Source: Odontocerum albicorne
Lineage: Eukaryota > Arthropoda > Insecta > Trichoptera > Odontoceridae
DNA: 64,000 nucleotides
Direction of reading: 5' to 3'
Assembly (NCBI GenBank): GCA_949825065.1
Contig: OX463845.1
Span: 29,077,315-29,141,314 of the forward strand
The notes below the pieces were generated by a model. The model was not told the origin of the DNA and searched no databases. It saw only the letters and a list, made by a program, of their open reading frames with translations. Every line of letters starts with the position of its first letter. The stretch's first letter is position 1. Positions 1,611-62,171 of this stretch are shown here, piece after piece. The position numbers were made by a program, and so were the translations under genes.

Positions 1611-1910
1611 TTTATTAACACAATACACCATATACCATACTATAAACACACCATATACTAAACCATCAATACACCATATACCTATATAGAATATACTATA
1701 CCATCAACACATCATATACCTATATACTCGTACAACACACCATATATCATACCATCAACACACCATATACCAAACCATTAACACACCCACCATATAGTAA
1801 ACCATCAATACACCATATGCCTATGTACAATATACCATACCATCAACACACCATATACCTATATCCTCTTACAATACGTTATATACCATACCATCAAAAT
1901 ACCATAAATT
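1611..1910. repeat. Degenerate tandem repeat of CACACCATATACC type
   Basis: Imperfect repeats of about 20-50 bp built from 'accatatac', 'ctatatac' and 'ccatcaacacacc'. One unit carries TACTCGTA at 1725-1732 where a sister unit near 1812 has only TA. Confidence 0.75.
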
Positions 1911-1999
1911 ATGGTACTATTTTTTTTATGTAGAAGGTACTAATTTTCATTTAATAATTAAATTTGTTGCTTTGGAATTATTTCGAGTCCACGTTCACT

Positions 2000-2560
2000 A
2001 CCGAACTTCACGTGTACTACATATGTGAATTACATACATAACATCACACCGTTTCCCTGCTGGGATAATCAAAGAAGATATAACTTTCCTATCTCGATAC
2101 ATACATTTCGCCCCTTCCACATCCATACACCTTCTCATACAGCTCATACGATTTCGAAAACTTCTTACTTTTCCTTCTTTCAACATTATCAATCATTTGA
2201 TTCAATCATACTTTGTTTGATCTTCGTCTACCAGGCCTTCCACTCACACTTGCAGTTTATACTGTTTTGTTAGTATTTATTCATTAATTCGTTCTATATG
2301 TCCAAACTATCTCAGAATGCTCTTTTTCATCTTACTCAAAACATCAGCCTTAAGTCCCGCATTCTATCATACATTGTTACTCCATGTATTCGTCTCAGTG
2401 CACGCATTTCTACAACATTTATTTGGCTTTTTCCAGTATTTTTCCACGTCCAAGTTTCACATCCATACATCAATATTAGTACTAAAATATTGTTGTTACT
2501 TATCATCTTAGTATACTTTGATAGACTGGGATCCTTAAACATATAGACTCGACCCAGTGT
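2000..2560 (-). mobile_element. LINE-A fragment, C-terminal coding region and tail
   Basis: Minus-strand frames contain VLILMYGCETWTWKN, INVVEMRALRRIHGVTMYD (2336-2542) and SCMRRCMDVEGAKCM (1998-2192), in the correct LINE order but in shifted frames. The first block is the end of the reverse transcriptase thumb region. The others form the C-terminal tail typical of endonuclease/reverse-transcriptase LINEs in insects. The 5' part is missing, as expected from truncated target-primed reverse transcription. It ends beside a 20-bp hairpin at 2529-2578. Confidence 0.75.
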
Positions 2561-2578
2561 CTATATGTTTAAGGGTCC
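2529..2578. repeat. Inverted repeat (hairpin)
   Basis: Arms of 20 nt (2529-2548 and 2559-2578) pair at 19 positions around a 10-nt loop. The left arm begins GGATCCTTAAACATAT. It lies at the 5' break of the LINE-A fragment and may be a snap-back formed at integration or repair. Confidence 0.8.
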
Positions 2579-2784
2579 AATTGACTTTGTTTCCTATCAC
2601 AAGCCGTTTGATATGACTCATAACTTTTCCATTTCTGAGAAAATACTACCTAACATAAATAGTATTATAGAATTCTTCAACTTGTTCCAATCTTCCATTG
2701 TTCACCCATGGATCGCATTTTATTTTGTGAATTCAAGGAATTTAGTTAAGACAATATAAAAAAATGACCATGATTGAAACAATT

Positions 2785-2960
2785 GACAATGCAAAGTGAG
2801 AAAAAACGTTAGACCGGAAGGCGATATACTTGGCAGCGTCTTGCAAGCAGCCAGGTGTTGGATAGCTCCACGATTGGGTTCACTTCCTCGACCACCCCAA
2901 GGAACGAGGATGCTCGTGACCGTGATTGGTGATTGTGATTGGTGTGGCCCCATTGACAAT
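2785..2960 (+). repeat. Dispersed repeat, second copy of 1430-1610
   Basis: Direct-orientation copy of the 1430-1610 repeat, sharing 'acgttagaccggaag' and 'ccaggtgttggat'. It has diverged and has no convincing continuous frame. Confidence 0.5.
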
Positions 2961-3018
2961 TTTAACGGATTTAGTGAAACAATAAAATACGGGAACCAGG
3001 TGGCTTTTAATGCTTCCT

Positions 3019-3557
3019 TAAGATTCACATCCTTAATAATTGTTTTATTGTTTTGTTATTTCTGATGTCATCAATTTTGCGTATTTTTTGTGAAAACTTT
3101 TGGTATTTATTTTTATCGTGTAGTTGTAATTTTAATTCGAACAATATATTTTTACTATTTATGGAACGCTGTTCACTTTGATTTCTTACATAAATTTATT
3201 ACTATTATAACATATGAACAAAATCTTTTAAGAACTGGATTTTTCAATCGGTATTAGGTTAAAATACATAATTGAAGATGTACTCGTACTTAATCGTAAG
3301 ATTCACATCCATAATAATTGTTTCATTTTATCGTTATTTCTGATGTCATCGATTTCGCTTAATTTTTATGGAAACTTGTGGTACTTACTTATTTTTATAT
3401 TATTATTTTCATCATGTACTATACATATTTGTAATTTTAATTCGAATAATATGTTTTTTTATTATTTATGGCTGTTTATTTTAATTTCTTTCAAAATATT
3501 GATTTACATCCACAATAATTGTTTCATTTTATTATTATTCCTGATGTCATCGATTTA
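3019..3557 (+). repeat. Three direct repeats, AT-rich
   Basis: A block starting 'gattcacatcc.taataattg' and containing 'ttatttctgatgtcatc' occurs at about 3019-3190, 3298-3490 and, truncated, 3497-3557. The copies have diverged and encode nothing recognisable. Confidence 0.75.
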
Positions 3558-3763
3558 CCATAGACGTTCACTGGACGCGATAAAGATATGGCTTTTAGTA
3601 AAGCAAATTTGTCTCGCAAAGGACAACTGAAAAATACATGGTCTATAGTTTCATCATCCAGACCACACTCGCAGCTGGGATTCTCCACAATACCCATTAT
3701 GTAAAAATGGCTAGTCACCATACAGTGGCCCGTCCTCAAACGACATATGACAGACACTTCCAT
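3524..3763 (-). mobile_element. Non-LTR retrotransposon C-terminal zinc-knuckle fragment
   Basis: The 79-residue minus-strand frame has RLRTGHCMVTSHFYIMG followed by CECGLDDETIDHVFFSCP. A leucine-arginine-threonine-glycine-histidine block, then CxC, a spacer, H and C, is the pattern found after the reverse transcriptase or RNase H domain of R1/I/Jockey-group LINEs, where the template-derived protein carries a CCHC finger. The start codon is arbitrary and the frame runs out at a truncation. No EN or RT domain is next to it, so this is a dead 5'-truncated copy. Confidence 0.65.
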
Positions 3764-3865
3764 CTTGGTTATTCTTATTATATTAAGCCTGTTGTTAGTT
3801 GTTAGATTTCGAGTCCATATTTACACTAGTTATATTATATCTCAATCTAACGTGTATTAACTTAG

Positions 3866-4110
3866 ATATATTCAATTCACACAAAATACATATATATTTT
3901 CAAAATAATAATATCATAATAAAAGGGAAATTTATATAGCGCCGTTTATAGAGCAGCTTATTTACCTAAAATGTACTGTGTATGGCCTTAGATAGATTTA
4001 ATTCACACAAAAAGATCTTAGGAAAGTAATGATACAATAGTAAAAAGACAATTTACATAGCGCCGTTAAGACCAGGCTTTCCTCAAGGACGTTCTAACTC
4101 GAAAGTTAAG
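3866..4110 (-). repeat. Duplicated LINE 3'-end-like repeat
   Basis: Two tandem copies (about 3866-3960 and 3990-4090) contain 'agcgccgtt' next to AT-rich tracts. The reverse complement, 'cttgagga...ggcgctatataaat', recurs at 28238-28315 and 46108-46170, so it is a dispersed family, perhaps a LINE 3' end with a short A/T microsatellite tail. Confidence 0.45.
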
Positions 4111-4290
4111 TCTATTCTTATTGAAAATTTTAAAATATTATTAAATATAAAATATGTTGAATGTTAGTATTGGAAGAAGCCAACATCGGTCATTCGATTT
4201 GATACTTCCCTGCATCTGCAAATGCAGGAAGAAAATATACGTCACAAATATTAAATACCAAATTAATACCACCATTTAATTGTGCTGTTT

Positions 4291-4486
4291 TGTATTATAC
4301 TTTCACTGTTTGTATACAGTACAACCTAAAGGTTTTCGTGTCATATGCCAATCACTTCCAACTAGCCAAAGTGATATTTAAGAAGCCTTAAGTGAAAAAC
4401 CAAAATTGAACCATTTTTTTTTATTTGAGCTCCTACTGAACTAATCCGCAATAGTGACGTTTCTACCAACTAGGCCACGGAGGTCG
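4291..4486 (-). mobile_element. SINE-A copy (tRNA-derived)
   Basis: Reading on the minus strand: a tRNA-like head starting 'acgacctccgtggcctag', a central part with 'cacttaaggcttctt', then a tail resembling 'ggttggaagagattgcc' and a CAAT-rich end. The A-box-like 'cctagttggtag' is kept, the B box is decayed. The family is called SINE-A here and has more than 15 copies in the window. Confidence 0.8.
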
Positions 4487-4545
4487 TGTACATTAATAAC
4501 ACTACCGCAAGCCAAAAGGTAACAACAACCTTGTAGATTGTCTAT

Positions 4546-4634
4546 TAACCAGACTGGATTTATTTTATATACAATACTTTTGGGTATCAATGGGATTCAA
4601 CCCGAAACTCCACGGTGGAAGACACATGTCCCAC
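4546..4634 (-). mobile_element. SINE-A, partial head
   Basis: Contains the reverse complement of the B-box block ('gggattcaaccc') and the middle 'aaccagactgga' motif of SINE-A. It directly abuts the MITE starting at 4639. Confidence 0.6.
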
Positions 4635-4638
4635 TATA

Positions 4639-5203
4639 CTTCGGAAATTCTAGGATGGGTCCTTTGACAGTTGACAAATTTGCCCCAATACAACCTTGTA
4701 ACGACGTTCATTAATTTTAATTATTTTATCAACTTTAATATAAGCCTCGATTCTAATAAATAGAAAGTTATTAGGTAAATACATTACAAAAAACTAACAA
4801 TAATGACAAATTAATACATCTTGTTAAAAATTAGCAAAAATGTGGCAGTTTGTTAAAATCAAATAATATTTGGTGACGTTTGTCAAAAGTCACTACGTTA
4901 GTCTGCATTGGCTAGGGATGGGGTATTCGGTAATTGGATTTTCGATTTTTTTATACCTAAAATGAAATGTTCGTAATTAGTATTAATTTATTGTGGATCT
5001 TGGTCTATTTAAAGATAGATACAAATCATACAATACATTAGAAAGTCAGTATAATGAAAATTAGGAATTAAAACGTCAGCTTAGAGAAAAACCATTTTTC
5101 AATTTATAAAAAAACTATTCGATTTGTAAAAAAAAAAAAGGTTTTACCCCATCCCTTTGAGACATGACGTTTAAAACGCCACACGACCCATCCTAGATTT
5201 TTA
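4639..5203. mobile_element. MITE-M, copy 1
   Basis: About 565 bp, alignable over nearly its whole length with 27528-28062. Both ends carry an inverted 'taggatgggtc' block. The left starts CTTCGGAAATTCTAGG after a TA at 4637-4638, while the right end is more decayed. The interior has no open frame. Short palindromes inside include 'gtgacgtttgtcaaaagtcac' (4873-4893), given here only as its position and flanks GTGAC/GTCAC. TA flanks suggest a Tc1/mariner-type transposase acts on it in trans. Confidence 0.7.
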
Positions 5204-5473
5204 CTATAACTACGCTACTAATGTCACCACGAACAATATTTGCCTATTTGTTGTACAGTTGAGTTAACTATTGCAATAAATTGGTTTATTGCTTAGTATT
5301 GTTTGAAAAACACAATCCGTGATTTCTCAAATGATTTATGGCATTTTTTCATAACACTTCGCATTTAGTCTCCGAATCTTTATCCGTGTATTCTCCCACA
5401 ATATTGTAATATGTTACTTCTGTCTTGCAGATGTCCGGTGGACGGATAGTATTATACATGTCTCTTCTTGCAG

Positions 5474-5680
5474 TATCAGAAGATAACCAAATGTGTGTAT
5501 TTCTTTAGAAATATTCTTCAAAAAGCACACATGCCCCCCGAAAACAAGAAGAAAAATATGGTGACTGTTTTGGAAACGGAACATAGAAGCAATATGGTGT
5601 GCTTGGAATATGTCGAACACGTGATGGAATATTTTTGTGAGAAGCAAATATCTATATTTTTTTTATTTGAATACTTCTAA
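5474..5680 (+). other. Coding-like frame, possible exon
   Basis: After a strong acceptor-like sequence ('catgtctcttcttgcag', ending 5473), a frame runs YQKITKCVYFFRNILQK, then VLETEHRSNM and CLEYVEHVMEYF before a low-complexity phenylalanine run. A GTGAGA donor-like site at 5636 would end an exon at 5635. The EYVEHVMEYF segment weakly resembles the helix that opens the cyclin box in B-type cyclins (EYVxxIxxYL). That is a resemblance only. A second acceptor-like site, with an ATG right after it, is at about 5430 but its frame stops. It may be a gene fragment, a pseudogene or chance. Confidence 0.3.
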
Positions 5681-5792
5681 GTATATGGGAATCCAAAATT
5701 CATAGTAGACCATGAGATTTCTTTGCACAGTTATTAGTATTTGATATGGTTGTAGAATATATACCTGTATTGAGAAAATTTAAAAATTAATC

Positions 5793-13640: not shown

Positions 13641-13645
13641 CATAT

Positions 13646-13718
13646 GGTCCTGTGGCGCAACGGATAACGCGTCTGACTACGGATCAGAAGATTCCAGGTT
13701 CGAATCCTGGCAGGATCG
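13646..13718 (+). tRNA. tRNA-Arg-ACG: tRNA-Arg (anticodon ACG)
   Basis: A complete 73-nt tRNA gene. The acceptor stem GGTCCTG pairs with CAGGATC (one G-U), with discriminator G. The anticodon stem TCTGA/TCAGA closes a loop CTACGGA, giving anticodon ACG at 13678-13680. The T arm CCAGG-TTCGAAT-CCTGG is perfect. Internal A box (TGGCGCAACGG) and B box (GGTTCGAATCC) are intact. There is no intron and no CCA, as in eukaryotic nuclear genes. ACG is read as ICG after deamination and decodes CGU, CGC and CGA. A T run follows at once. It is the only RNA gene here that looks functional. Confidence 0.97.
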
Positions 13719-13721
13719 AAC

Positions 13722-14661: not shown

Positions 14662-15134
14662 CAATATCTAAATCATACAATATATCTCGTGTTCTAAGAT
14701 TTTTTTTAATAAAAGAGAAACTACCTACAATGCCCTCGCCGCGAAAAGACAATGAATAAATAAAAAAAATCTCAGATGAGAAACGAACCCACGACCTTCC
14801 CCTGTCTGTGAAGTATTCTATTTAACAAAAGAAACATTATTCGTCTGTACATGTATTTCGAAAAACTTTTCGAAAAGCATTTAAAAAAAACACTGTTATT
14901 CGAAATGAAATGCTATTTTTGTGATTTGTTTTTTTATTCATGTACTCGTACGTTGGTACAAGAAATAAATTAACATGTTTTAGCAGTTTTTAGATTCAAA
15001 CAATATGTTTAAATGTAAACCCAACAAAGTGAAAATACTTCAGCTTTATATTATAATTGAAAAATAATTTTTTGAATGGTCTAATCTAATTTAATATTAT
15101 TACATGTGTTTTTTTCACAGTGTACTATTATATA

Positions 15135-21720: not shown

Positions 21721-22829
21721 ATATCCTTTTAAAATTATTTGTCGCTAAAATATAAATGCTGGACGCAATAATCTATGCTATGGGAGCATCAATACATTAT
21801 TACCTTTCTTAGCTATCAAGCCCGATTCTTGAATGACATAATATCCCCTTTGTATTATAATATTAGGACTTTGAAAACCCCTGTGTTAACATCCACTGTT
21901 TTACCAACCTCAGACCTTCAATCCATCAACTTCTGTAGTTTCAATTTATATATCAAATTTTTATATACTAATAGGAAATATAGCGAACCCCTCGTTGATC
22001 CATAAACTTTTGTTTTATGCACCTGACAATTATTCAGGCCATCGTGAATTAATAACATTTTTCGGTGTCATATTCCGATGTGATACAAAAGAAAATTCCG
22101 ATGTGATATATTCTATATCTCAGTGGATATGTTGAGAATTAATCTCCTTAATAAACTTTGTCTATATACCTCAGCGACTTCACAGGGAAGCTTGAGTAAT
22201 TATTGTTCATGTTGTTATTTTTAACATTTATCTATTAAATAAATTTATTATAATTTGCATTCTTTTATGCAATTGGATACCTATATAAATTTTAAAATAA
22301 CTATATCCTTTTCAGTTATCAATGTTAAAGCTGATACTATTTTTGGTATTGTGGTGAAAGACGGTATAATAGAATATTGTTAAACAGGTCCGATTATCTT
22401 TATATTTTCTGGAGCATCAGAAGCTGAAGACGTACAAACGTTAAAGAGAATTCTAAAGCTGAAAATATAAGTAAGTTACAAAAGAACATAGTCTCCCTTG
22501 GAGGGACTTTGGTAGATACGAGTACATAAGGAAAAATAAAATATTTCACCTTTTATCAAACAACATTTTTCTCAACCACCAAAAATGTGAAAAAAAACAG
22601 GCTGATAATATAGTTTAGGCTATGGCCAAACCTGCGGACTCGAACCAAAAGATTCCACGTATAAATCGAACTGGCTGCCTCATGTTATACGTAGAACAGT
22701 AAAATAACCCGAATTCGGTCAAAATGTATGGGCGGTACTTTTCCTTGTGTTGACACTGGTCGAAATCATGCATGTGACTATCGTTTAGAAGCAAACTAAC
22801 CTAATTGGAGGATACTTATGGTGAGATAG

Positions 22830-25298: not shown

Positions 25299-25329
25299 TT
25301 AGGTCCTTACAAATGAAATTGGCGTTTTG
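25299..25329 (+). repeat. mariner left terminal inverted repeat
   Basis: 31 bp, next to TA at 25297-25298. Transposase binding site. Confidence 0.95.
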
Positions 25330-25486
25330 CCGTACTGGCAACTTTGATCTCAAATATCTTCTCTTTGGTTAGGAATTCCAAATTAAAATTTATACAGCTC
25401 TTTACTCAAGTATTTGTGTTTCGAAAATTAAAATTATTTGTTTTTTCCTCAATTGTTTTTTTTCTTTGCGTCACTCAGTTTACAAA

Positions 25487-26506
25487 ATGGAAAACTTGAA
25501 ATATCGCGTTATTTACGAGTACGAGTTCCACCGTGGCACCAGTGCTGCAGAAACGGCTCGAAGGATTAATGATGTGTATGGCAACGGTGCCGCAAAAGAA
25601 AACACAGTGCGTTTTCGGTTCCAACGTTTTCGTTCTGGAAATTTCGACCTGCAGAAGAAGCCCCGTGGACGGCCGGAGACCAAAGTTGATAATGAAGAAT
25701 TGAAGGCTATTGTGGAAGCGGATCCATCGCAAACCACGTCCGAGTTAGCTGCAGGCTGCGGTGTTAGTGATAAAACTGTTTTAATCCACTTGAAGCAAAT
25801 TGGGAAGGTGAAAAAGCTTGAAAGGTGGGTACCTCACGAATTGAGTGAAGCAAATCAACAAACGCGCGTTGACTGCTGCGTTGCATTACTCAACCGGCAC
25901 AATAATGAAGGGATTTTGAATCGAATCATTACCTGTGATGAAAAGTGGATCCTGTATGATAATCGGAAGCGCTCATCGCAATGGCTGAACCCTGCCGAAC
26001 CAGCCAAACCATGCCCCAAGCGAAAATTGACTCCAAAAAAGTTACTTGTGAGCGTTTGGTGGACTAGTGCTGGTGTCGTTCACTACAGCTTTCTTAAATC
26101 TGGCCAGACGATTACGGCAGATGTCTATTGTCAGCAACTGCAAACCATGATGGAAAAGCTAGCTGCTAAACAACCGAGGCTGGTTAATCGCTCTAGGCCA
26201 CTGCTGCTTCATGATAACGCTAGACCACACACTGCACAACAGACGGCTACCAAATTAGAAGAGCTTCAATTGGAATGTCTAAGACATCCACCGTACTCTC
26301 CGGACCTTGCCCCAACAGATTACTATTTTTTTCGAAATTTGGATAACTTCTTGCAAGGGAAAAAATTCAACTCCGATGGGGCAGTCCAAACCGACTTCAA
26401 AGATTTTATTGATTCCCGTCCGAATGTTTTTTTTAGTAAAGGGATCGATGAACTACCTATGAGATGGCAAAAGTGCATAGATAGCAATGGTACATACTTT
26501 GATTAA
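25487..26506 (+). CDS. mariner transposase, intact
   Basis: 339 residues. The frame also opens seven codons earlier, but only with TTG (25466), so I take the ATG at 25487, which has A at -3 and G at +4. N-terminal DNA-binding part: AAETARRINDVYG (about 20-32), FRFQRFRSGNFD (about 43-54), GRP linker at 61-63 and a second helix-turn-helix at about 84-108. Linker WVPHELSE lies at 114-121. Catalytic D,D34D triad: D151 (TCDEKWI), D243 (LLHDNARPH) and D278 (SPDLAPTDYYFF), with exactly 34 residues between the last two. The protein cuts and pastes the element at TA sites in the nucleus as a dimer. Length, motifs and the end (CIDSNGTYFD) are normal, so it may be active or only recently inactive. Subfamily was not assigned. 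Confidence 0.97.
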   Translation: MENLKYRVIYEYEFHRGTSAAETARRINDVYGNGAAKENTVRFRFQRFRSGNFDLQKKPRGRPETKVDNEELKAIVEADPSQTTSELAAGCGVSDKTVLIHLKQIGKVKKLERWVPHELSEANQQTRVDCCVALLNRHNNEGILNRIITCDEKWILYDNRKRSSQWLNPAEPAKPCPKRKLTPKKLLVSVWWTSAGVVHYSFLKSGQTITADVYCQQLQTMMEKLAAKQPRLVNRSRPLLLHDNARPHTAQQTATKLEELQLECLRHPPYSPDLAPTDYYFFRNLDNFLQGKKFNSDGAVQTDFKDFIDSRPNVFFSKGIDELPMRWQKCIDSNGTYFD

Positions 26507-26553
26507 ATAAATATATTATATTAAAAAAAAATCAACTTTATGTTCCTCCCAAA

Positions 26554-26584
26554 CAAAACGCCAATTTCATATGTAAGGACCTAA
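26554..26584 (-). repeat. mariner right terminal inverted repeat
   Basis: 31 bp, next to TA at 26585-26586, one mismatch to the left end. Confidence 0.95.
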
Positions 26585-27177
26585 TATATTCACTATCCAC
26601 CATAACATTGATGCCGCCTATACTGCCTGAGATATGTGAGCACGTATTCAATGTACTAAGGATGAATAATAAAGTCTAGAAAAGTTCGAATAAAAAAACC
26701 TTTTTCCATGCTTACGAGACATAGAGCTTATCGGTCTCCATAGTTAAGATAATGATGATTTATTCTTTAGCATGGTAAGTGACAGTGCGCAATCACAAGG
26801 TCGCCTTAATTACTTTTGCATGTAATGGAACGTTTAAAACTTTTCTTTAAAAGCTTCCTTATTTTAACTACTACGAGTATAATACTCACACTCTGCCGTC
26901 ACATCCTTACACATTCTTGAATTCCTCTCTCTCACATGCATACATGTCATTCTAGTAATTCTATACACATCACAATCTCATCACCACATCACATTATGTC
27001 CAACAACTCATTATGACACTGTCTATATTCGCACTAGTTAATGACTTGTACTAGTATGTGATGACTTCCAAAACCTCCTCACTCCTCGCTCTTCCTCTGT
27101 TAAATATCTACCTTGTAACATATTTAATATCCGTGTTTGATTTCAGTCTTAACATAATAATGTGATTGCTAACTGGT

Positions 27178-34209: not shown

Positions 34210-34960
34210 ATACAAAAAAATTTAATAATTAAATATTGTGTCACTTATAAGAAACAATAAAATACTCGTACTTCTAGAATTCGAAGAATCAATTCAATTA
34301 TTGTTTTAATTAGCAATCTTTCTAAATTATACTCATACTTTGAGAACCTCAAAAGTTGTACAAAATTTACCGAAATGTGGTCGTGTAGGAACTATAAGGC
34401 GAAATGGACGTAATTACCCAAATAGGGCCCAATCGTCATTTTACCTATTCTAATATGTTATATTATAATTGAGGAAATGTCTCACTGCTTTCTCAAGGCT
34501 TGTATAGCCAAAAAAAATATAAGGAATTCAATAATAAAATACTCATTTAAAAGACGTGATATTTTAGCACATATCATACAAGCCTGGTCCTTGCTTTAGC
34601 GACATGTCAAATAAACCAAAATAATGTGTTTTGTGGATTGAGTACTTTTTGCACCTGTACGTCTGGATATTTTTTGTTGGGCATGACCGAAATTATTCTT
34701 GACAAATTAATTTATATGGGCAATTCAAAGTTGAATATTTTCAGTGTATGACTTACTTCATTAAGAAATTCTAGGGTGTATCGACTTAAATTGGGCATAC
34801 ATATTTGCAAAAAACATCCATTACGCATTTTGCCTTTTTTGTGATGATAAAGAAAACATGATGGATGAAAAATTTTGACGGAATTTGTGAAATACGAGTA
34901 TATATATTTTTACTGATACTTTTACATATAAGCGATAAAATATTTTTTAAGCCTACCTGC
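34210..34960. other. No gene seen
   Basis: AT-rich spacer. Two TACTCGTA/TACGAGTA octamers (34263, 34893) are the only notable feature. Confidence 0.5.
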
Positions 34961-36870: not shown

Positions 36871-37268
36871 ATTTCTGGAACTTTAAATTGCTTATCGTCA
36901 CATATTTCTGAAACTTTTAATTGCTTATCGTCACATATTTCTGAAACTTTAAATTGCTTATCCTCACATATTTCTGAAACTTTAGATAACTTCTATGGCA
37001 TTTTGGTAAAGAGGTACAAGTCATCAATTACTTATTTGTCAGTTTGAAGTTTTGCAACACTTGTATTCCTGAAATACAGACCTCAGGTAAATTTTAAAGG
37101 TAAACTTTGAATATATAAATTATTTATGTATTCAAAGTTTACCTTTAAAATTTACCTGAGGTCTGTATTTCAGGAATACAAGTGTTGCAAAACTTCAAAC
37201 TGACAAATAAGTAATTGATGACTTGTACCTCTTTACCAAAACACCATAGACTTATTCTCACATATTTT
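36871..37268 (+). repeat. 33-bp tandem repeat interrupted by a hairpin element
   Basis: 'atttctg.aacttt' starts units at 36871, 36904, 36937 and 36970, and after the hairpin again at 37264 ('atttttggaac'). Removing the hairpin plus one ACTT rebuilds a unit of exactly normal length. Confidence 0.9.
36993..37249. mobile_element. Foldback (hairpin) element with 4-bp target duplication
   Basis: 257 bp. Arms of 121 nt (36993-37113 and 37129-37249) are reverse complements with two mismatches, around a 15-nt loop. Termini CTATGG/CCATAG. Flanked by ACTT at 36989-36992 and 37250-37253. No coding capacity. Four-base duplications occur with Sola, Chapaev and related transposases; which one applies is unknown. 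Confidence 0.85.
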
Positions 37269-37385: not shown

Positions 37386-38064
37386 CATTACTCGATAATG
37401 AGTACGCCGCGCAATCTCACACGTGGTATTTTTTCCTAAATATTTTTTTATGCGGAATGTGACCAACATTATTGTCACAATTTTTTGATCTTAGGCATCG
37501 CTCAGCTTGAACGAGAATTAAGTTTCCTCTACTAGCTTCTATGGACCACTTTAAATTAGAACCGTACGTTAGTTATAAAATGGTAAATTCAAACTCAACT
37601 GAAGCAAATTCTCACGACTCCAAGGCATGACGGCTCAATGTCAGAATTTCTCCCAGATGGAATCGATCCATGTGATTAGTTCCACATATCAGATTTCCCA
37701 ACCGATTTCTGCGGTCAGATCATTCTCATGACTTTCAGAATGGTGAACGAGATAGTATTTATGTAGGTCTCCACATCGTGAAAAGTTCAGAAGACTTAAA
37801 AGTAGATGCAACCTTATACGTTTGGTGCAAAAAATACGAGTATGATCTGAGTACAGGATAAGTGACAAATTGTATAATATGAAATAATTTTTTTTCAAAA
37901 TATTCGTTCTTGTTTAAGTCAACATTCAAAAAGTACATTCATTATCTGGCTCCTGTGAAGTCTACTCCGTGTTAAAAATGTAAAAGACATTATTTATGAT
38001 CTCATTTTTTTTATTTATACATGTATTATATGTGGTTATGCATGATATTGACGGACTTATTATA

Positions 38065-40010: not shown

Positions 40011-40212
40011 CGACGACTCCGTGCCCTTGTTGGTTATACACTTGATTTCAACCTGTAGGTTGTAGGTTCAATTCCCGTTGGTACCCATATTTTTCTAAAG
40101 GATTTATGTCTAGTTTGACTTTAGGCCTTGTTATTTTTTTTATTGGTTGTAGAGATTGCCACGTGGCAGCAAATCCACTAGGTTGTCCTATATTCAACTA
40201 AAAGTGTAATCT
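40011..40212 (+). mobile_element. SINE-A copy
   Basis: 'cgacgactccgtgcccttgt' head, B box 'ggttcaattcccg', then 'ttggttgtagagattgccac' and 'aaaagtgtaat'. It is followed directly by TACTCGTA at 40212-40219. Confidence 0.85.
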
Positions 40213-40264
40213 ACTCGTAAAACTAAACAACAAAAATAATCTAGTAATAGCTTTCTGCAATACG

Positions 40265-40375: not shown

Positions 40376-40667
40376 AAAATTTTAAAACCAGTTTAACCAA
40401 AACAACAACATATTTCTTAAACTTGATGTAATAAACACTTGGGACAGTTCAAAAAGATAATGAGAGAGGTGAATAAATTAATATTCATCTCAAAAAGGTG
40501 CTCGTTACGGTTGTCACTTCATTGAAGGCATAATAATATATCTGCAACGCCAGGGAAATTAATACGAGTAACATTGTTACTCATGAGCATATGTTACTTA
40601 AAAAGCTAATTAATTTTGCAAAGGCTACTCTGTTGGGCTTGATGTTAAAATTAAATGGAACTGTCAG

Positions 40668-40740: not shown

Positions 40741-41490
40741 TTATAATGGACCTAGAAACCTTGAAGGAGATTCAAATAAAGCCACATTATAGTATTTCAC
40801 TAAATTACTTAAGAATATTACAGATTAGAAATATCGATGATCTTCGGCAAAAATTACATTTGACAATTTTGTTCAGTGGCATATCTCATAGTTTTGCATG
40901 GTGAATCTAAAAACCTTGAAAGAGATTCAAATAAAGCCACATTATAGTATTTCACTAAATTACTTAAGAAATATACAGATTAGAAATATCAATGGTCTTC
41001 GGCCAAAATTACATTTGACAATTTTGTTCAGTGGCATATCTCATAGGTTGTATGGCGATTCTAAAAACCTTGAAAGAGATTCAAATAAAGCCACATTATA
41101 GTATTTCACTAAATTACTTAAGAATATTACAGATTAGAAATATCGATGGTCTTCGGCAAAAATTATATTTGACAATTTTGTACAGTGGCATATCTCATAG
41201 GTTGTATGGTGAATCTAAAAACCTTGAAAGAGATTCAAATAAAGCCACATTATAGTGTTTCACTAAATTACTTAAGAATATTACAGATTAGGAATATCGA
41301 TGGTCTTCGGCAAAAATTATATTTGACAATTTTGTACAGTGGCATACGAGTATCTCATAGGTTGCATGGTGAATCTAAAAACCTTGAAAGAGATTCAAAT
41401 AAAGCCACATTATAGTATTTCACTTAATTACTTAAGAATATTACAGATTAGAAATGTCCATGGTTTTTGGCAAAAATTGTATTTGACAAA
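40740..41490 (+). repeat. 154-bp tandem array, five units
   Basis: 'gattcaaataaagccacatt' marks units at about 40769, 40924, 41079, 41233 and 41393. Each holds 'cactaaattacttaagaata' and 'gtggcatatctcataggttg'. The fourth interval is six bases longer because TA became TACGAGTA at 41345-41352. Short frames across units repeat the same peptide, which only reflects the period. Confidence 0.95.
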
Positions 41491-41624: not shown

Positions 41625-42075
41625 CTTACCTTCACCACTCATCCCTATCACGACCACATTGTATCCAGTTGTACCTGACTAATTTTCTGATGTCGTTCGA
41701 CCATCTTGATAGGTTTTTTGGTACACTTCTTTTCCGTGTCTTTGGTCGCCCCTTTTCATGATATGTAGACCAAGCATTTTCTGGGTCTATATATCAGTGG
41801 TACAACCGGCAATGTGCCCTGCTCTATTCCACCTCTGGGTGGTTACCTTTTTAGAAACATCTACAATTTTGATCTGCTGCCTTATCCATTCATTCGTCTT
41901 CTAGTCCCGTAATGAGATATAACATACAGCATTATTATATCCATGTCCCTCTGAATCACCTTGAACTTATGTATTATTTGATTTGTGGTCTCGAGCCCAT
42001 ACTCGTATGCCAATACTAGGACGACACATCAATCTAATAGACCTTTCTCTAGGTATATCTAGCACATCGGAGACT
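41625..42075 (-). mobile_element. RTE-like LINE C-terminal region
   Basis: The minus strand near 41640-41765 encodes RPKTRKRSVPKNLSRWSND, then IRKLVRYNWIQCGRDRDEWW. This is the GRPxxRWxDDIxxxxGxxWxxxAxDRxxWR block at the end of many insect endonuclease/reverse-transcriptase proteins. The rest (to 42075) has the expected order but broken frames. Confidence 0.65.
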
Positions 42076-45146: not shown

Positions 45147-45287
45147 GTGTTTCATATACACATTTTAACAATATCCATTTGATTGGAAAGGTTATAAAAA
45201 TGATGGTTATATTCCAAACAAAAAGACATGTCATGTCGAGAATTGAATATACTCGTACAATATAACCTGTTAAATTTAGTATCGTTT

Positions 45288-46179: not shown

Positions 46180-47740
46180 TGAAACATCACCAGCTTCGTT
46201 CAATATTGCCACAAGATGTCCCAAACTGAGTTTTGTTGCTTCTAAGAGTTTCAATACAGATCAATGGTGCTTCGTCTCGAATAGATACGTTACTGAAACA
46301 TTATTATTTTTTTCAAATCGATTAGAAAACCGCATTCTTATACGAAAAAAAAACTTTTTTGATTATTTTAACATAAATTGTTTTACATTCAAGGTGAGCA
46401 TTAGAAGATGATAAACAATAATTGCAAAAAAACTTAATCAAATATAGTAGAAAATAAACAAACCAAGATATTATCCATATTCAAATATCAATTTTGAATA
46501 ATAGCAATTAATGAAACATAAAAAAAAAACTAAAATAATTTAACTCAAGTTCCCCGATCACGGATTCACAGCATAATGAAATTCGAGATTGATTAGCATA
46601 CAACCTTATTTGGTGAGGATTATTTGGGGAAATGTATTCGGCGCAATTTACATAACGATGCAAAGTTTTAAGGAAATTGACTCGAGCCTCAAGAACAAAG
46701 TCTGAAGATATGTTAAAAAGATGTAGTAATCTGGAATTGTTTGTTTAGTATAAAGTTTGAGTATAATTGGCGGACGTAATGGATGGAAAAACAACTTTGT
46801 GATGTAACATACATACATCCTATCACGTTGTGACGTTAAGGGTAGCCATATATGGCAGATCTCCACAATTTTGTATCTACGAAATATAGTAAGCTTTATC
46901 TCATTTATATCCCTCATCACATGTTACATTGTTTGTGATATGTATACTTCTTTCATTTACCTTAAATAAACTATATCTACTCTTTCTATTCTTCCCTCGG
47001 TCTTCATATTCCTCACTTTCCATTTATTACGCAATGATTGGGGATGTTTTTCAATCAGGATTACATATGTTCATTTGAAAATTTTATTGTGAAGGTATTT
47101 TTCTCAGAATCACATATGTGTATAGTTGCTGAAGCGTTGTGTATCTTGTTCAACATGATCTTTATCGGAAGAATTTCTGTGTCAGATAAACTGAAGCGCC
47201 ATGGATGTTTGAATATTGTGTATTTATATTTACAGTTATTTATTAGTTCTGTTTTTATTATTTTCAGCATGGTTGAAGATTGGTTTTGTAAATGGGCTGG
47301 CCATTATTTTTTTTGGGTTTATATTTCCGAATTTTAAAATATTAATGTGTTTAACTGTTTGTATTCTTTTCCAAATCGTTTATTGATATTTAATTCTGAT
47401 TTGGTTTTCCTATACGTATTGAGTGGATGAATTACTCGTATGCCAGCGAATTGTTGTTTCTTTTTTTTTCAAACGGATTTTCTTAGTGTGTATGTTGTTT
47501 TATGAGAGTCCTTCTATGCGCAAGATGCAACCATGAACATTGGCCTGCTGTGCTTGCTATGTGGAGATATGTGTGTGTTTATTTCGATTGTAATTTTATA
47601 CAAATCATGTTAATGTTTATACCTTGTTACATCGTTTGTTTTGCATTTGTGTGAACTAAAATTTTAAAATGTATTATTTTAATGATCGAAATCGATTGTA
47701 CAGTAAATAAAATAAGTTACAATGCCGCAAAAAATATTTA
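46180..47740. other. No gene seen
   Basis: AT-rich. Frames of 90 and 99 residues (46648-46920 minus, 47038-47337 plus) are hydrophobic and low complexity. No motif or splice structure convinces me. Confidence 0.45.
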
Positions 47741-47989: not shown

Positions 47990-48445
47990 TTGTCAATATA
48001 CATCATCATCAACCTCACGCCATGTTCTCAGAGGGGTAGGCAGTGATAACAGATTTCCACTGCAATATATACCGACATACATCTTTCGCTTCTGCTACGT
48101 CTATACAATTTGTCATACACACTCTCATAAAGGCTTTCACTATTCCTTCTTTCAAAATTTGGTTATGTCAAGATTTTCTAATCTTCCTGAATTCCTTATA
48201 CTACTCGTATATAATATTTTTATAAATGTTTCATCATTCATTTATTCAACGTGACCGAACCATGTCAATACTCCTTTTTTGATCTTAAGTACGAGTATTG
48301 CATCTTCTTTCGATCCACATTCTTTCCTAATGTCATAATTTATTACATAATTTATTATTTGGTCATACATTGTTTTTTCATATATAATATGCAACACTCT
48401 CATTTCTACCACATTTATTTTACTTGCATCACTTCTTGACAAGTC
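47990..48445 (-). mobile_element. LINE-A fragment with two octamer insertions
   Basis: Minus frame 48242-48442 has SKINVVEMRVLHIIYEKTM, then YDIRKECGSKEDAILVLK and TWFGHVE, the LINE-A order. TACTCGTA at 48202-48209 and TACGAGTA at 48290-48297 lie inside. The latter adds six bases relative to 10320-10545. Confidence 0.75.
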
Positions 48446-52059: not shown

Positions 52060-52507
52060 TTGGATGTTAACATAAGTTGTATCCGTTTTTTTTTTTCAAT
52101 TTAAATATGGTATGGTTTAAACAGTCCCCATCGAAGTTCACTGGTCGTCCGGAAGGCTCCATGTATTTCAGATCGAAATTACCATCGACGAGCTGTCCTT
52201 TCTTTCATAGCATATTCACAGTACACTTCGCAAATATCGCGAGCAGCTTTGGCAGCTTTATTCCCTCGATTGAACGCGAACAGAAGGAGGTGTCAAAAAT
52301 GCTCACTTTCGTCTACTTGACATTCCATTTTGAAGACTTGTAATCAAATAAAATAATATACGAGTATGTAACGTAAAAGCAAACACAATATATTTTAGAG
52401 CAGAAAATTTTCTTTCGAATGACGTATAACCTTTACCATTTTGTTTTACTTTTGGTGCTCATTTTTCAATTTGGAAAAAAACGGACCCAACTTATGTTAA
52501 CACCTAA
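52060..52507 (-). mobile_element. Internally deleted mariner derivative, copy 2
   Basis: 448 bp, TA at 52058-52059 and 52508-52509. Ends: TTGGATGTTAACATAAG and (right, reverse complemented) TTAGGTGTTAACATAAG. The interior is the same N-terminal transposase remnant as 716-1238, but with a TAA-type stop and frameshifts. A TACGAGTA at 52359-52366 replaces the TA of copy 1. Confidence 0.85.
52130..52329 (-). pseudogene. mariner transposase N-terminal fragment, broken
   Basis: Minus strand: a start followed by CQVDESEHF, a stop, HLLLFAFNRGNKAAKAARD, ICEVYCEYAMKERTARRW and a stop. Homologous to 862-1065 but shorter in the RFKDGNFD part. Confidence 0.75.
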
Positions 52508-54430: not shown

Positions 54431-54440
54431 TTTATACATC

Positions 54441-54886
54441 AAGCCTATTTATACATCAACATATTCTTTGGATTGGCAGAGATAACAATGAAGATTATTT
54501 ATACATCAACATATTCTTTGGATTGGCAGAGATAACAATCAAGATTATTTATACATCAACATATTCTTTGGATTGGCAGAGATAACAATCAAGATTATTT
54601 ATACATCAACATATTCTTTGGATTGGCAGAGATAACAATCAAGATTATTTATACATCAACATATTCTTTGGATTGGCGGAGATAACAATCAAGATTATTT
54701 ATACATCAACATATTCTTTGGATTGGCAGAGATAACAATCAAGATTATTTATACATCAACATATTCTTTGGATTGGCAGAGATAACAATCAAGATTATTT
54801 ATACATCAACATATTCTTTGGATTGGCAGAGATAACAATCAAGATTATTTATACATCAACATATTCTTTGGATTGGCAGAGATAAA
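54441..54886 (+). repeat. 50-bp minisatellite, nine copies
   Basis: Unit begins 'aagattatttatacatcaac' and continues 'atattctttggattggcaga'. Full copies start every 50 bp from 54491 to 54841, preceded by one partial copy. Only two substitutions are seen in the complete units (54490, 54678). Confidence 0.98.
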
Positions 54887-55639: not shown

Positions 55640-55841
55640 AAAATGAAAATTGTACTTCCCGTTCTTGAAAGGTTTTGCGTCCGTATCCCTAGATTTGGCA
55701 GCCCTGTATGTTGTATCATGCAGCTCCCCACATAACGAATTGAGAGAACATCAGTTGACTACAATGTGGTCGGTAGTCTCATTATTTCTGTTAAGCGTAC
55801 GAGTATACCAAAGTGTTTGTAATAAGGAGAAACTAAGTTAG
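55640..55841 (+). other. Coding-like frame before a tandem repeat
   Basis: The plus frame contains FASVSLDLAALYVVSCSSP, HNELREHQLTTMWSVV and SLFLLSVRVYQ. Composition is coding-like with a hydrophobic stretch. An acceptor-like 'cccgttcttgaaag' precedes it. Its end overlaps the first unit of the 107-bp repeat and has an octamer insertion. Not recognised. Confidence 0.25.
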
Positions 55842-56553: not shown

Positions 56554-56559
56554 GTTAAA

Positions 56560-57750: not shown

Positions 57751-57754
57751 AAAT

Positions 57755-57860
57755 ACAAACCATCACGTCGTTACCTTTCGCCACAGATGACAAAACACTG
57801 TACTCTCCATCACGACATATGATACTTCCTTCGCATTTTCTATTTTACTTATTTTTCATT
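57755..57860 (-). mobile_element. Possible LINE-A 3' stub
   Basis: 'aaaccatcacgtcgttacct' and 'atgatacttccttcgcattt' are weakly similar to the LINE-A terminus on the minus strand. Confidence 0.3.
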
Positions 57861-58030
57861 TCCACGTGTTACAACTACACACCATTATGCCACTAAAATA
57901 CTGGTGTGATCCACTACTAAACATAATTGACATTGTTTGGTTCAAGTATGTGTATGTACTTGGGTTACCTTTTTTCCTATGACACTTCATCGATTTACTG
58001 TTATAAACAGCATTGACAACAATATTGTAT

Positions 58031-58165
58031 TATGTTATTTTACACTTCCGTTGTATACAGTAATACCTGGCGAGATTATCGTCATCTATCGTCAACGATA
58101 TCTTAAGTGAAAATCAAACTAAAACTATTTTTAAAGTTAACTGAGTTTCAACGGAAATCGAACCC
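58031..58165 (-). mobile_element. SINE-A, partial
   Basis: Tail 'acacttccgttgtatacagt', middle 'cttaagtgaaaatcaaact' and B box 'ggaaatcgaaccc'. The head is lost. Confidence 0.7.
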
Positions 58166-58530
58166 GTTTTTATAATTAATTAGAATTAAAGATCTTTATG
58201 GTGTTATTGGTGGTATCTTGAATAAGATTTCAGCAGAAATTGAGCCCGGTACCTCCAAATTGGTTGGCAAATACGCAAAACTACTAACTGGTATGGACTC
58301 AACAAAAATGTATACATTGGTAATAATTTTTTATTTGTAATCAACATATATTATATGTTATGTTATCCCTTCAGTTTATATCTGGTCACATTTTGCTCTT
58401 CTAAATTTGGTTTAAATTGGCTAAGTTTGGTTGAATGCGTTCCTTTTTTCTGCTTAAATGTTATTAAATAAATTAGAAAATCCTTTCAAATCCAAATCCA
58501 AAATTATTCGTCAAAAAGAAAAAAAAACCA

Positions 58531-58712
58531 AAGCCTTTTATCATAAGGTACTCGTAACGAGTGTACATTGGTGATGTTGGTAGCAACGCACCAATTTCAC
58601 TAAATATAATTTCACTAAAAAAAAAAACGAAAGCCTTTTATCATAAGGTACTCGTAACGAGTGTACATTGGTGATGTTGGTAGCAACGCACCAATTTCAC
58701 TCAATATAATAT
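58531..58712 (+). repeat. 100-bp tandem duplication containing the octamer
   Basis: 'aagccttttatcataaggta' starts at 58531 and 58631. Both copies hold TACTCGTA followed by ACGAGT, so ACTCGT-A-ACGAGT forms a small inverted repeat. Confidence 0.95.
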
Positions 58713-58794
58713 ATAATGTATTATTACACTTTTGTTATATATTACCATATAATAATGAATATCTTATAATCAATCAAAAATAAACCGAAAATAA

Positions 58795-59092
58795 TTTAAA
58801 CAAAATTGCAATCCCAATCTGGACCAGCGTCTTACCAACTAGGTAGCGGGGGAATGCTGTATTCTGTAAACAAATATTAACTTAAAAATAAAATTTTAGT
58901 TCTTTGTTTTATTATATTTTATAGTATTCTATGGGTAGTTCTCATAAATGTCTATTCAATCAAGTCATTGTATTGTATAACGTATTTTTGTATAAAGTAC
59001 TACCTGGCAGAGTTTTCTGATACGTGACAACCTCTTACAGCCAACCAGTAAGATATTAAAGGAACCTGAAGGGAAACCCAGACTGACACCGT
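58795..59092 (-). mobile_element. Two SINE-A fragments
   Basis: 58795-58856 is a head ('cgtcttaccaactaggtagc'); 58971-59092 is a tail with 'gcagagttttctgatacgtg' and 'gaagggaaacccagactga'. The pieces are in the reverse of the order expected for one minus-strand copy, so they are two fragments. Confidence 0.5.
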
Positions 59093-59447
59093 ATTTATTG
59101 TATAAAATTAATTTCTTTATTTTATATTTGATACATGTTTAACCCAATTACATTAAATAAAATGCATAATGTAAAAAAAATCAAAAGAAAAAAAAATAAT
59201 ACTTACTTACTAATAAGAACATTGATTACTCATGCTTCTCTGTGAAATTACTCAATTATGCACACAAAATTTTTTGAGGAGATCAATCCTCAATTTATCA
59301 ACTGAGATATGTAAAATATCAATATCGGAAAGTCGTTCAACAAGGTTATTCCGTGTGCGAGTGGTGACGCTTTTAATAGTTCAGTTCGTGAATATGGCAC
59401 CGAAAACAATCATAATTCACAATGGCGTAAATAATTGTCAGGTATAT

Positions 59448-59515
59448 TAAACAAATCGGGTATCAAACCCGCAACTTCCGGGTTGGAAGACAGATGTCGT
59501 GCCATGACTATCATC
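59448..59515 (-). mobile_element. SINE-A head fragment
   Basis: 'gggtatcaaacccgcaactt' and 'ccgggttggaagacagatgt' are the reverse complement of the B-box half of the SINE-A head. Confidence 0.6.
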
Positions 59516-59659
59516 AAAAGCTTTTCTTTCTAATGTCATGTAATCAGCCGCCATCAACTTTAGTTTATTGATTAATATCTGCAGTCGTTAAACTTGGTAA
59601 CTACCGTTTTTCGAACTCACTAGTTTTATTGTTTCAAGTATGTGCATGTCTTATTTCAG

Positions 59660-59740
59660 AGAAGACACGGCACGTTGACGGGTATGACCGATTGAACCAC
59701 CTTACAATTCCCACAAGAAAAGAGACGTGGAGGAAAGCTT
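59660..59740 (+). CDS. Candidate internal exon (+)
   Basis: 81 nt between a strong acceptor (catgtcttatttcag) and a consensus donor (gtaagt). One frame is open and reads KTRHVDGYDRLNHL, then TIPTRKETWRKA, with phase 1 at both ends. The RLxxLxxPTR...TWRK pattern loosely resembles the short repeats of THEG-type testis proteins, which is a weak similarity. The minus strand of the same bases is also open and could be the last exon of the minus-strand candidate gene at 59870-60163, so only one of the two readings is likely. Confidence 0.35.
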
Positions 59741-59869
59741 GTAAGTAACATAGTTTCGAGATAAAAAGATCATCTTAAAATATCACCTCAACTTAATCCT
59801 TCAACAATTGTATAATATAAAGGGCCTTTAAAATAATACACTTAAGAATCATTAAAGCAAAACGCTTAC

Positions 59870-59969
59870 CTGGCCGCCTAAGCCACTTTATTTCTGAAAC
59901 ACGTTTGTGCAGGTGTTCAGCCGACATTGTGTCGCCAAAGCTTAAAGGTCCACACAGACTCTTCACATG
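59870..59969 (-). CDS. Candidate exon B of a minus-strand gene
   Basis: 100 nt between an acceptor with a long pyrimidine tract (ctttttttctttgtgcc, then aactcaag) and a consensus donor CAG/gtaagc. The frame runs HVKSLCGPLSFGDTMSAEH, LHKRVSEIKWLRRP, and the ATG inside (59927, context CACAATGT) could itself be the start. Phase 0 at the 5' end fits exon A, and phase 1 at the 3' end. Family unknown. Confidence 0.4.
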
Positions 59970-60092
59970 CTTGAGTTAAGCAGTAAGGCACAAAGAAAAA
60001 AAGTATAAATTTAAACATGTTACTTAAAACATTACTTTTAAAAATATTTTTATATTTCTTATAAGTTGGTTATATGTCACGATCCAGCTCAC

Positions 60093-60163
60093 CTGGTGGA
60101 ATTTGAATGAATCACGAACAGTTCGTCTTTGGCGCCGGTATTCAAGAAACACAATAAAATGAA
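60093..60163 (-). CDS. Candidate exon A of a minus-strand gene
   Basis: 71 nt, acceptor gagattttcag, donor CCAG/gtgagc. The frame compatible with exon B reads HFIVFLEYRRQRRTVRDSFK then FHQ. A second frame is also open. The intron to exon B is 123 bp, a common size in insects. Confidence 0.35.
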
Positions 60164-60169
60164 CTGAAA

Positions 60170-60800
60170 ATCTCACACAGTATATAAATTAGAACGATTA
60201 CTTCACCACACAAAGAGCTATTTTAATATTATATATAAAATATTTACTATATACGTCAATGTTAGCACTTTTTAGAAAATCCTCTTATTTATAGAATACT
60301 TCAAGTAAATAATTTTAATTACGTTCCTTGGAGTTTTATTATGCATTACGGAAAAGAAATTAGTAATTTTATCTGATTTCATTAATATATTAGCATTCTG
60401 AGATTTTTAGAATCGTTTTCTATTTATTAATGTAAATATTTTTATATTTAATAAACTTAAGTTGAAACCAGATTTTAAACGCTGTTTATATGTATATATA
60501 CTTCATGTATCGTTTGTTGTTCTCTGTAGTAATTATTTAAATAATATATTTTTTTCTAGTCTTTAGTTGGTTTGGCGCCACATGATTAGCCTTTGAATAT
60601 TTATTCCTGTTATTACTATGTAAGTAAACGGTGAAATAATTTAATAGATTTACATGCTGTAACTTGCTTAACCAATCTAAATAATTCAACGTTTTTTTCC
60701 AGTAAATCAAAGTTTATTTTAAGTAGCTTTTATTTTTCATCCACAATGAAATCTTCAAAAATGATTGTGCACAGTGGAGTGCTAGTACAACATTGTTTAT
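60170..60800. other. No gene seen
   Basis: AT-rich, no frame or repeat of note. Would be the upstream region of the minus-strand candidate gene. Confidence 0.45.
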
Positions 60801-60804
60801 TTAA

Positions 60805-60990
60805 CACATCATTGTATTACAACTTGGTAGACTTATTGCCAGTTGGAAATCTATTCCAACCATCCATACATAAAGGAATTTACATGGTCGAAACAAACAT
60901 TCATATCATTATTTATTTATGCTAAATTTATGAACAATACACATAATAAAAATAAAAGTGAGATATTATCAATCAAAGAAATATGGGAAG
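60805..60990 (-). mobile_element. LINE-C 3' end
   Basis: 'tggtagacttattgccagtt' tail at the left and 'aataaaagtgagatattatc' (3' UTR block as at 8 kb) at the right. Confidence 0.55.
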
Positions 60991-60999
60991 GATGCGAGA

Positions 61000-61412
61000 G
61001 ACAATGGAAAAATTGGGAATGAAACACGTCACATTCCAATTTGGGTCCATGGAAGTGAAGCATTGGCATTGAAAAGGATTGATAAGAGAATAATAAATGT
61101 GGTAACAATACAGACCTTAAGTAAAATATCAGGTATTACAATGTTTGACAGAGTAAGAAATTGTCATTAAAATGATACATGTCAGAGACGGCCGTAATAT
61201 GTAAAAAAATAAATGCAGAGCGAGGAAAAGCTGGAAGCAGATAGTTGAAGAGTTAAAGGTAAGGTAAGAAGTATGATAAACAGGAGAGCATGTATGACGA
61301 GATATATAGATGTGGGCATGCGAAAATTGTATACATGAATAGAAAGGCTTGGATATGTGTCCTCTCTACCTATTCTTAAAGGGACATGACGTGATAGTAT
61401 GTATATATGAGA
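61000..61412 (+). mobile_element. LINE-A fragment
   Basis: 'gggtccatggaagtgaagca' (YGSEA-like), 'aataaatgtggtaacaatac' (INVV), ITMFDRVRN, then 'aaagctggaagcagatagtt' and the terminus 'cctctctacctattcttaaa' and 'catgacgtgatagtatgtat'. Several frameshifts. Confidence 0.65.
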
Positions 61413-61448
61413 CAATAAATTTACTATCCTAATAATTTATTCCAATAA

Positions 61449-61567
61449 AATGGTACATAAATCAAATTAAGACTGCAGCGGGATCTTCTTTGGTATCAAG
61501 ACTCAGCTTAGCTCGAAGAAGAATCTTTGATAATGTTGATGCAGTTAATGGACACGAAGATGTTTAG
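61449..61567 (+). other. Short coding-like frame
   Basis: WYINQIKTAAGSSLVSRLS, then LARRRIFDNVDAVNGHEDV and a stop. Composition is coding-like, but no acceptor is evident. Not recognised. Confidence 0.25.
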
Positions 61568-62171
61568 TGATTAGATAAGAACGAAAAAGAAGTTGAAATA
61601 TGTTTTAGTCTTCCAATAACCCATTTGTTTCGCTGTAGCAACACATTACTTAAAAATGTATTATATATTATATTTATTAACGTTATTATTATATTTTAAT
61701 GTAACTTGCATTTAAATGCACTTATTACAGAATCATGAATTTTAATGATTTTTTTCTGACAAATTATTTTCAACAATCTAATAAATGGTCACAATAGAGT
61801 TTTGAAATCTCGACTACCTTGATTTCAAGATTGAATCCGTTTATCGAAAACGTCAAAAAACTTGTCCTGATAATCTGCATGTGTATATAAATCGATCTCG
61901 CTCCAATAAATCTAATGCACTTCTAATGTGCAATCAATGCGCTTAATAATATACAAATTTGAAAGTCTTACCATTTTTTTTTATTTGCTCTTGTAATTTG
62001 GTTCTTATGCACTTGCAACATACTCGTATATATTAAAAAAATGGTTAAACACCTTGAATCATATGACATGTTGACGTGCCAACTATTTCTTGTAAATCGC
62101 ATTGTATCATTCCAGATAGTCGCAGTTACGTTTTATGGCCGGAATGGTTATTTTCCACTATTTTTTTAGTA

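Follow-up and report, generated by a model that had tools for sequence, protein, structure and literature searches.

A TA-centred octamer abundant in the genome of Odontocerum albicorne: probable excision scars of a TA-targeting transposon and a mariner candidate for their source

INTRODUCTION

Why should one word of eight bases, TACGAGTA or TACTCGTA according to strand, recur 22 times in 64,000 nucleotides of insect DNA? The stretch concerned, positions 29,077,315 to 29,141,314 of the forward strand of contig OX463845.1 (assembly GCA_949825065.1) from the trichopteran Odontocerum albicorne, is here called the window, and a preliminary description of it had taken the octamer for a six-base addition at a bare TA, of the sort that a TA-targeting transposon would leave on departure. 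The answer to which the comparisons below lead is that the octamers are, as a rule, likely to be repaired excision scars of a cut-and-paste transposon that targets TA and has the ends TA-CGAG...CTCG-TA. Which element departed is a separate question, and a resident mariner, family A, is weighed for that role together with the Tc1-like element Minos and others.

A WORD IN EXCESS

All 22 reported starts proved exact, 12 being TACTCGTA and 10 TACGAGTA, and the earlier remark that composition alone would predict roughly 2 to 3 agrees with Markov expectations of 1.7 at order 2, 1.85 at order 3 and 3.3 at order 4. When words with at least 8 copies are ranked, none in the window exceeds its expectation more strongly than the octamer at any of these orders, with GGCAGAGA practically tied with it at order 4, and 200 simulations of the window at order 3 gave a mean of 1.9 copies and a maximum of 8.

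The assembly holding the window has 1,287,057,991 bases, and on both strands of it the octamer occurs 381,502 times (190,749 + 190,753) versus 30,151 times (15,070 + 15,081) for the reversed control word. The excess suspected from the window is therefore present genome-wide, and is 12.7-fold; that the two orientations are equally frequent is a weak test, as any unbiased word would match. The surplus over the reversed word amounts to some 351,000 copies, one per 3.7 kb, and were every surplus octamer a six-base gain, about 2.1 Mb of DNA would have been added.

A 194-kb sample, comprising the window and thirteen 10-kb stretches (L001-L013), contains 71 octamers versus 5.2 expected, and of the 122 copies of TACGAG in it, 71 have TA directly after them. 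The larger 293-kb set, which includes 30 loci picked for Tc1-like genes and one for a Minos match and so is not a random sample, holds 90 versus 6.9 expected (log10 P -65.6). No other TA-N4-TA word comes near this excess, the second-ranked standing at log10 P -6.1; among 8-mers, too, the excess of the octamer dominates in the stretches read. Among these 90 sites there are 88 distinct flank pairs, the two repeats being the pair 58549/58649 of the window and the window site 25514, which has a copy in L008.

GAIN OR LOSS?

Were the six bases gained, or are they ancestral and lost from sister copies? An alignable paralogue exists for 16 of the 90 sites. Four share the octamer by duplication (the tandem pair 58549/58649, and site 25514 in a mariner open reading frame together with its L008 counterpart), two are ambiguous (L030:1018 and L033:1019, each the other's paralogue, with octamers shifted and decayed) and ten remain. 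In none of these ten is the octamer carried by any aligned sister, and in eight at least one sister is exactly six bases shorter, that sister having a bare TA in six (window 41345 and 52359, L002:7723, L011:5343, L030:884 and L042:1795) and AG or TC instead of TA in the other two (window 48290 and L002:6754). The absence of the octamer from the sisters, combined with the exact six-base difference, argues that the bases were gained, as the preliminary description had supposed.

The window comparisons on which it had drawn are of unequal quality. Clean changes from TA to TACGAGTA are seen at 41345 relative to three sister units and at 52359 relative to the repeat at 946-1240; the sister unit of 55798 is consistent with a six-base gain and more diverged (73%); 48290 is a loose case, its sisters being 71-73% identical and without a clean TA; and the comparison at 1725 does not stand as clean, the nearest sister unit (85%) being equal in length with substitutions, and a six-base gap appearing only in a poorer alignment (75%). 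When six-base indels between paralogues are tallied without bias, the octamer ranks only second in a first set (3 of 21 sites) and fourth in a larger one (3 of 50), and on this tally alone it would hardly have drawn notice.

TARGET, LETTERS AND AGE OF THE PROBABLE SCAR

With the insert removed, 69 collapsed sites match ATA-TA-TAT at 3.36 of 6 versus 2.19 for all TA, the motif having been chosen from the same sites on which it was scored, so that 3.36 is somewhat favourable while the gap is still large; the largest value in 20,000 random draws was 2.75. There is, then, a palindromic preference around TA as for a TA-targeting cut-and-paste transposon. The three-base word TACGATA, which a canonical mariner with CGA ends should leave, is not in excess, either genome-wide (163,859 versus 165,820 controls) or in the 293 kb (27 versus 34.3 expected), and this, taken with the excess of the octamer among TA-N4-TA words, indicates that four bases were retained, CGAG or, on the other strand, CTCG. 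Genome-wide excess, gain relative to paralogues, TA-centred preference and the lack of a three-base footprint together support well the idea, raised at the outset, of a footprint left by a TA-targeting element that leaves four bases behind.

The scars are young, since the one-mismatch neighbours of the octamer show no overall excess in the 194-kb sample (131 observed versus about 136 expected, by manual addition). Set beside the 66 exact copies in excess, these neighbours suggest that decay has reached no more than a few per cent per site.

How might such a scar arise? On either strand of the element the transposase would cut four bases in from the 5' end, so that 3' overhangs of 4 nt remain, with CGAG on both flanks; their outer C and G could pair while the two central positions stayed mismatched, and repair of both mismatches together from one strand would then yield CGAG or CTCG. 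Were each mismatch repaired on its own, TACGCGTA and TACTAGTA would result. Their counts in the 293 kb (3 versus 1.7 and 3 versus 5.0 expected) are small numbers with no clear excess, and give no clear sign of independent repair.

Several observations sit less comfortably with this account. Two sites are not simple six-base gains: the sister of L001:9688 is four bases shorter, and at L014:947 eight letters are missing from the sisters in 10 of 11 alignments, and five in the remaining one. At L030:884 other letters stand in 5 of 15 alignments, with three letters or fewer left in 10, and at L042:1795 other letters stand in 3 of 18, with TA or GTA in 14 and TA----TA in one; most members of these two multi-copy families, however, do not have the octamer, as a gain would predict. 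Among the neighbour words, TTCGAGTA shows an excess of its own, 2.3-fold (15 versus 6.6 expected). No locus was seen with both filled and scarred alleles. Part of the octamers lie in tandem arrays, so that 350,000 somewhat overstates the number of independent events: at G000:C1:51271-51608 and 59263-59963 octamers recur at 66-bp and 99-bp spacing, from which it follows that some scars were multiplied by tandem duplication.

A MARINER FAMILY AS CANDIDATE SOURCE

A resident element with ends matching the retained bases does exist. The ends of family A read TACGAGGC[A/G]TATCCAGAAAGTAAGTGTAC, and these are found 15,908 times genome-wide at no more than one mismatch versus 0 for the control, so that elements with the ends TA-CGAG...CTCG-TA, anticipated in the preliminary description, are indeed at hand; we estimate that the family is still present in some 8,000-16,000 copies, which makes some 30 scars per surviving copy. 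Among 100 exact ends listed there are seven pairs 871-1275 bp apart, each of one A-type and one G-type end. By density there would be about 12,000 exact ends, corresponding to an end divergence of about 1% on the assumption that the listing gives all exact ends in order, and between two copies, each read in part, identity is 95.9% over 632 bp. What could be read of the protein belongs to the mariner transposases (PF01359), its relatives including sequences from aphids (74-82%) and from an ant (64%); in the partial translation from L044 a hand count gives 34 residues between the second and third D, which fits DD34D spacing. The L003 copy, the only one with both ends read, has TA on both sides. 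(In L044:1-2020 the 3' end of a family A mariner, at 639, has for its neighbour a Tc1-like gene with an end starting TACACTAGCGG at 1997-2020; the two appear to be nested or adjacent.)

Family A thus has the right four bases, the TA target and a fitting age, but its excision geometry would be atypical, and on this footing we lean slightly towards the link. That it is the main source of the scars is, by the same reckoning, the somewhat favoured proposal, and other CGAGG-ended mariners may be additional contributors. A fuller version, in which an atypical, four-base-cutting mariner jumped so often, with end-joining and not gap repair closing the break, that about 350,000 young scars remain, strikes us as evenly poised between acceptance and doubt.

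What tells against family A should be set out with equal plainness. The lack of excess of the three-base word would make it an unusual mariner; one end of the L003 copy is TACTAGG, not TACGAGG; no full-length copy is among those read; 86 of the 100 listed exact ends have no exact partner within 1.5 kb, which implies that many copies are decayed or truncated; and within the 290 kb read there are other mariner-like CGAGG ends at L028, L035 and L001.

KNOWN SYSTEMS

A Minos scar has CGAG or CTCG flanked by TA on either side, a canonical mariner leaves three bases, and the paper of Arca and others of 1997 is said to be the founding one on Minos excision. For Minos, a Tc1-like element of Drosophila hydei, a footprint of 6 bp is given (PMC10992017, PMC3386967) and an end primer starts TACGAGCCCC (PMC3680223). 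Alleles that had gained 4, 6 and 8 bases after excision are described in PMC6980720. Minos resembles the case at hand in its six added bases, with four terminal bases between two TA; it differs in that its scars are known from single laboratory events, whereas here there are about 350,000, and in that no exact Minos end is listed here. Terminal TACGAGG is on record for CGAGG-ended mariners, and TA duplication for mariners generally (PMC3770610, PMC4678618). Hsmar2 and the Rhodnius Rpmar mariners share this terminus with family A, whose transposase is of PF01359. In the Hsmar2 study footprints were non-canonical (PMC3770610); the three-base form of the canonical mariners is not in excess in this genome. 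For the Tc1/mariner superfamily footprints of 2-4 bp are given (PMC7913693). Sleeping Beauty and other Tc1/mariner elements resemble the present case in end-joining after excision, which leaves TA, a few terminal bases and TA; Sleeping Beauty, however, leaves three bases, TAG(T/A)CTA (PMC2874221), and the octamer four, CGAG.

Footprints of this kind and CGAGG-ended mariners are, then, already known. Among the matches listed from the open-access literature, as judged by title and start of abstract, there is no report of genome-wide excision scars on this scale; two of the papers listed, PMC1925063 and PMC4423477, deal on a smaller scale with DNA transposons of plants, their excision or their recent activity. 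Novelty seems to lie in how many scars one genome has and how fresh they are and, should family A be their source, in a mariner scar of four bases.

OTHER CANDIDATES

Minos was tested as the source both by end pattern and by protein, and is not supported. Its exact end TACGAGCCCCAACC is not listed genome-wide, the list starting at one mismatch. Near-matches to that end at two mismatches or fewer are in excess (3,433 versus 1,861 controls), part of this excess being due to a recurring word, TACGAGCCCAAACM (401 versus 6 in the control), which was rejected as an element end in two of three copies read, where homology extends into the flank upstream of TA; by eye it is LINE coding sequence. As the near-match excess is only partly explained in this way, there may be a Minos-like end with several differences. 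A Minos protein query gave best matches with identities of 26-43% (124 matches; of 31,425 candidates, 118 were scored), and no close transposase is among them.

Thirty Tc1-like loci (PF01498) were read, of 150 scored of 1,568 candidates. Recognisable inverted ends are present in 20, in three families (TACACT, TACAGT and TACAGA), none of them CGAG, and 10 have none of these three end types. A separate observation concerns TACATGTA, presumably a two-base scar of Tc1 type, which in the 194 kb is about twofold over expectation (14 sites versus 6.9, the palindrome counted once); these sites could be scars of CAGT-ended Tc1-like families.

The mariner of the window itself (25299-26584) was rejected as the source, its ends being TTAGGTCCTTACA. 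In its own right it has an uninterrupted 339-aa transposase frame and, beside TA, inverted ends that start with that word; its relatives include an 'lgn' sequence (90%), one of Bombyx mori (83%) and one of Pieris.

ALTERNATIVE EXPLANATIONS

Could the octamers be something other than scars? Chance, base composition, the spread of one word-carrying repeat or an assembly artefact might be entertained on the grounds that some sites are tandem copies and that the unbiased tally ranks the octamer only second or fourth, yet the 12.7-fold excess over the reversed word and the distinctness of the flanks leave this with very little credence. Just as improbable is a functional or selected motif, for instance a protein binding site: little decay is what one would expect of it, whereas gains of exactly six bases by individual copies of repeats that otherwise resemble one another, amid unrelated flanks, and a target preference that lies outside the octamer, as for TA insertion, are not. 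Only a shade less improbable is that a mariner-like transposase removes TA-flanked germline DNA from the soma as a programmed step of development, the assembly then being a scarred somatic genome. Hundreds of thousands of near-identical and little-decayed scars would suit it well; thousands of family A ends are nevertheless still in the assembly, and the scar at 58549/58649 was duplicated with its tandem unit, so that at least such scars are inherited.

A more serious competitor accepts the scars and disputes their author, another CGAG-ended element (a Minos-like Tc1, a different mariner family or one now lost) having made them, with family A merely sharing its ends. The six-base scar left by Minos (PMC10992017, PMC3386967), a four-base length that suits Minos better than a canonical mariner, the excess of near-matches to the Minos end and the several distinct CGAGG-ended mariner-like ends within the 290 kb all lend it some weight. 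Set against these are the listing of no exact TACGAGCCCCAACC, the failure of TACGAGCCCAAACM as an end in two of three copies, protein matches to Minos of 26-43% only and the 20 Tc1-like loci of 30 with recognisable ends, none of them CGAG, and we hold this reading possible though doubtful. The preliminary description had held that the responsible element would be distinct from mariner. That it must be distinct is not demonstrated: the young and abundant family whose ends fit belongs to the mariners, and for Minos, the element known to leave this scar, no exact end was listed and no close protein found among the candidates scored.

If the octamers are scars, excision events, usually scored singly in laboratory crosses, become a genome-wide record. 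A genome with hundreds of thousands of footprints would permit measurement of how often elements leave and which repair route closes the break; it would show whether the two central mismatches get repaired together, where elements formerly lay and what six-base in-frame insertions do to genes. Should the source be a mariner, its cleavage geometry would be unlike the three bases of the textbooks, and transposition and the repair of double-strand breaks could be read from the genome as from a ledger.

THE SITES OF THE WINDOW AND NEIGHBOURING FEATURES

The octamers of the window are collected in Table 1. After removal of 1725 (ambiguous), 25514 and 58649, 19 sites are kept, for most of which no paralogue is available. 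The preliminary description had already thought 25514 coincidental, rightly so: as a footprint it was rejected, its position in the mariner reading frame being common to the L008 copy. Counting 58549 and 58649 as two independent events was likewise rejected.

Table 1. Octamer occurrences in the window and what sister copies show
Feature	Position	Strand	Observation
Octamer TACTCGTA, ambiguous	1725..1732	+	nearest sister differs by substitution; six-base gap in poorer alignment
Probable footprint TACTCGTA	3281..3288	+	octamer present
Probable footprint TACTCGTA	14943..14950	+	octamer present
Probable footprint TACGAGTA	22517..22524	+	octamer present
Octamer in mariner reading frame, coincidental, no footprint	25514..25521	+	common to another mariner copy, in L008
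Probable footprint TACGAGTA	26872..26879	+	octamer present
Probable footprint TACTCGTA	34263..34270	+	octamer present
Probable footprint TACGAGTA	34893..34900	+	octamer present
Probable footprint TACGAGTA	37835..37842	+	octamer present
Probable footprint TACTCGTA	40212..40219	+	octamer present; one diverged alignment (75%) without gap there
Probable footprint TACGAGTA	40563..40570	+	octamer present
Probable footprint TACGAGTA	41345..41352	+	bare TA in three sister array units
Probable footprint TACTCGTA	42000..42007	+	octamer present
Probable footprint TACTCGTA	45250..45257	+	octamer present
Probable footprint TACTCGTA	47433..47440	+	octamer present
Probable footprint TACTCGTA	48202..48209	+	octamer present
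Probable footprint TACGAGTA	48290..48297	+	insert absent in diverged LINE paralogues (71-73%), no clean TA
Probable footprint TACGAGTA	52359..52366	+	bare TA in sister repeat 946-1240; bare CA in two more distant sisters
Probable footprint TACGAGTA	55798..55805	+	six bases missing from sister tandem unit (73%)
Probable footprint TACTCGTA	58549..58556	+	inside 100-bp tandem unit
Duplicate of 58549 site	58649..58656	+	one event copied by tandem duplication
Probable footprint TACTCGTA	62021..62028	+	octamer present

Other features of the window include a near-perfect palindrome at 36992-37250, with 129-nt arms that are 98% complementary and 1 nt between them, and two tandem arrays, one at 54438-54885 of 50-bp units (9 copies, 98%) and one at 40752-41489 of 154-bp units (4.7 copies). 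A tRNA-Arg (acg) is predicted, under a bacterial setting, at 13645-13719, and may alike be a gene or SINE-related.

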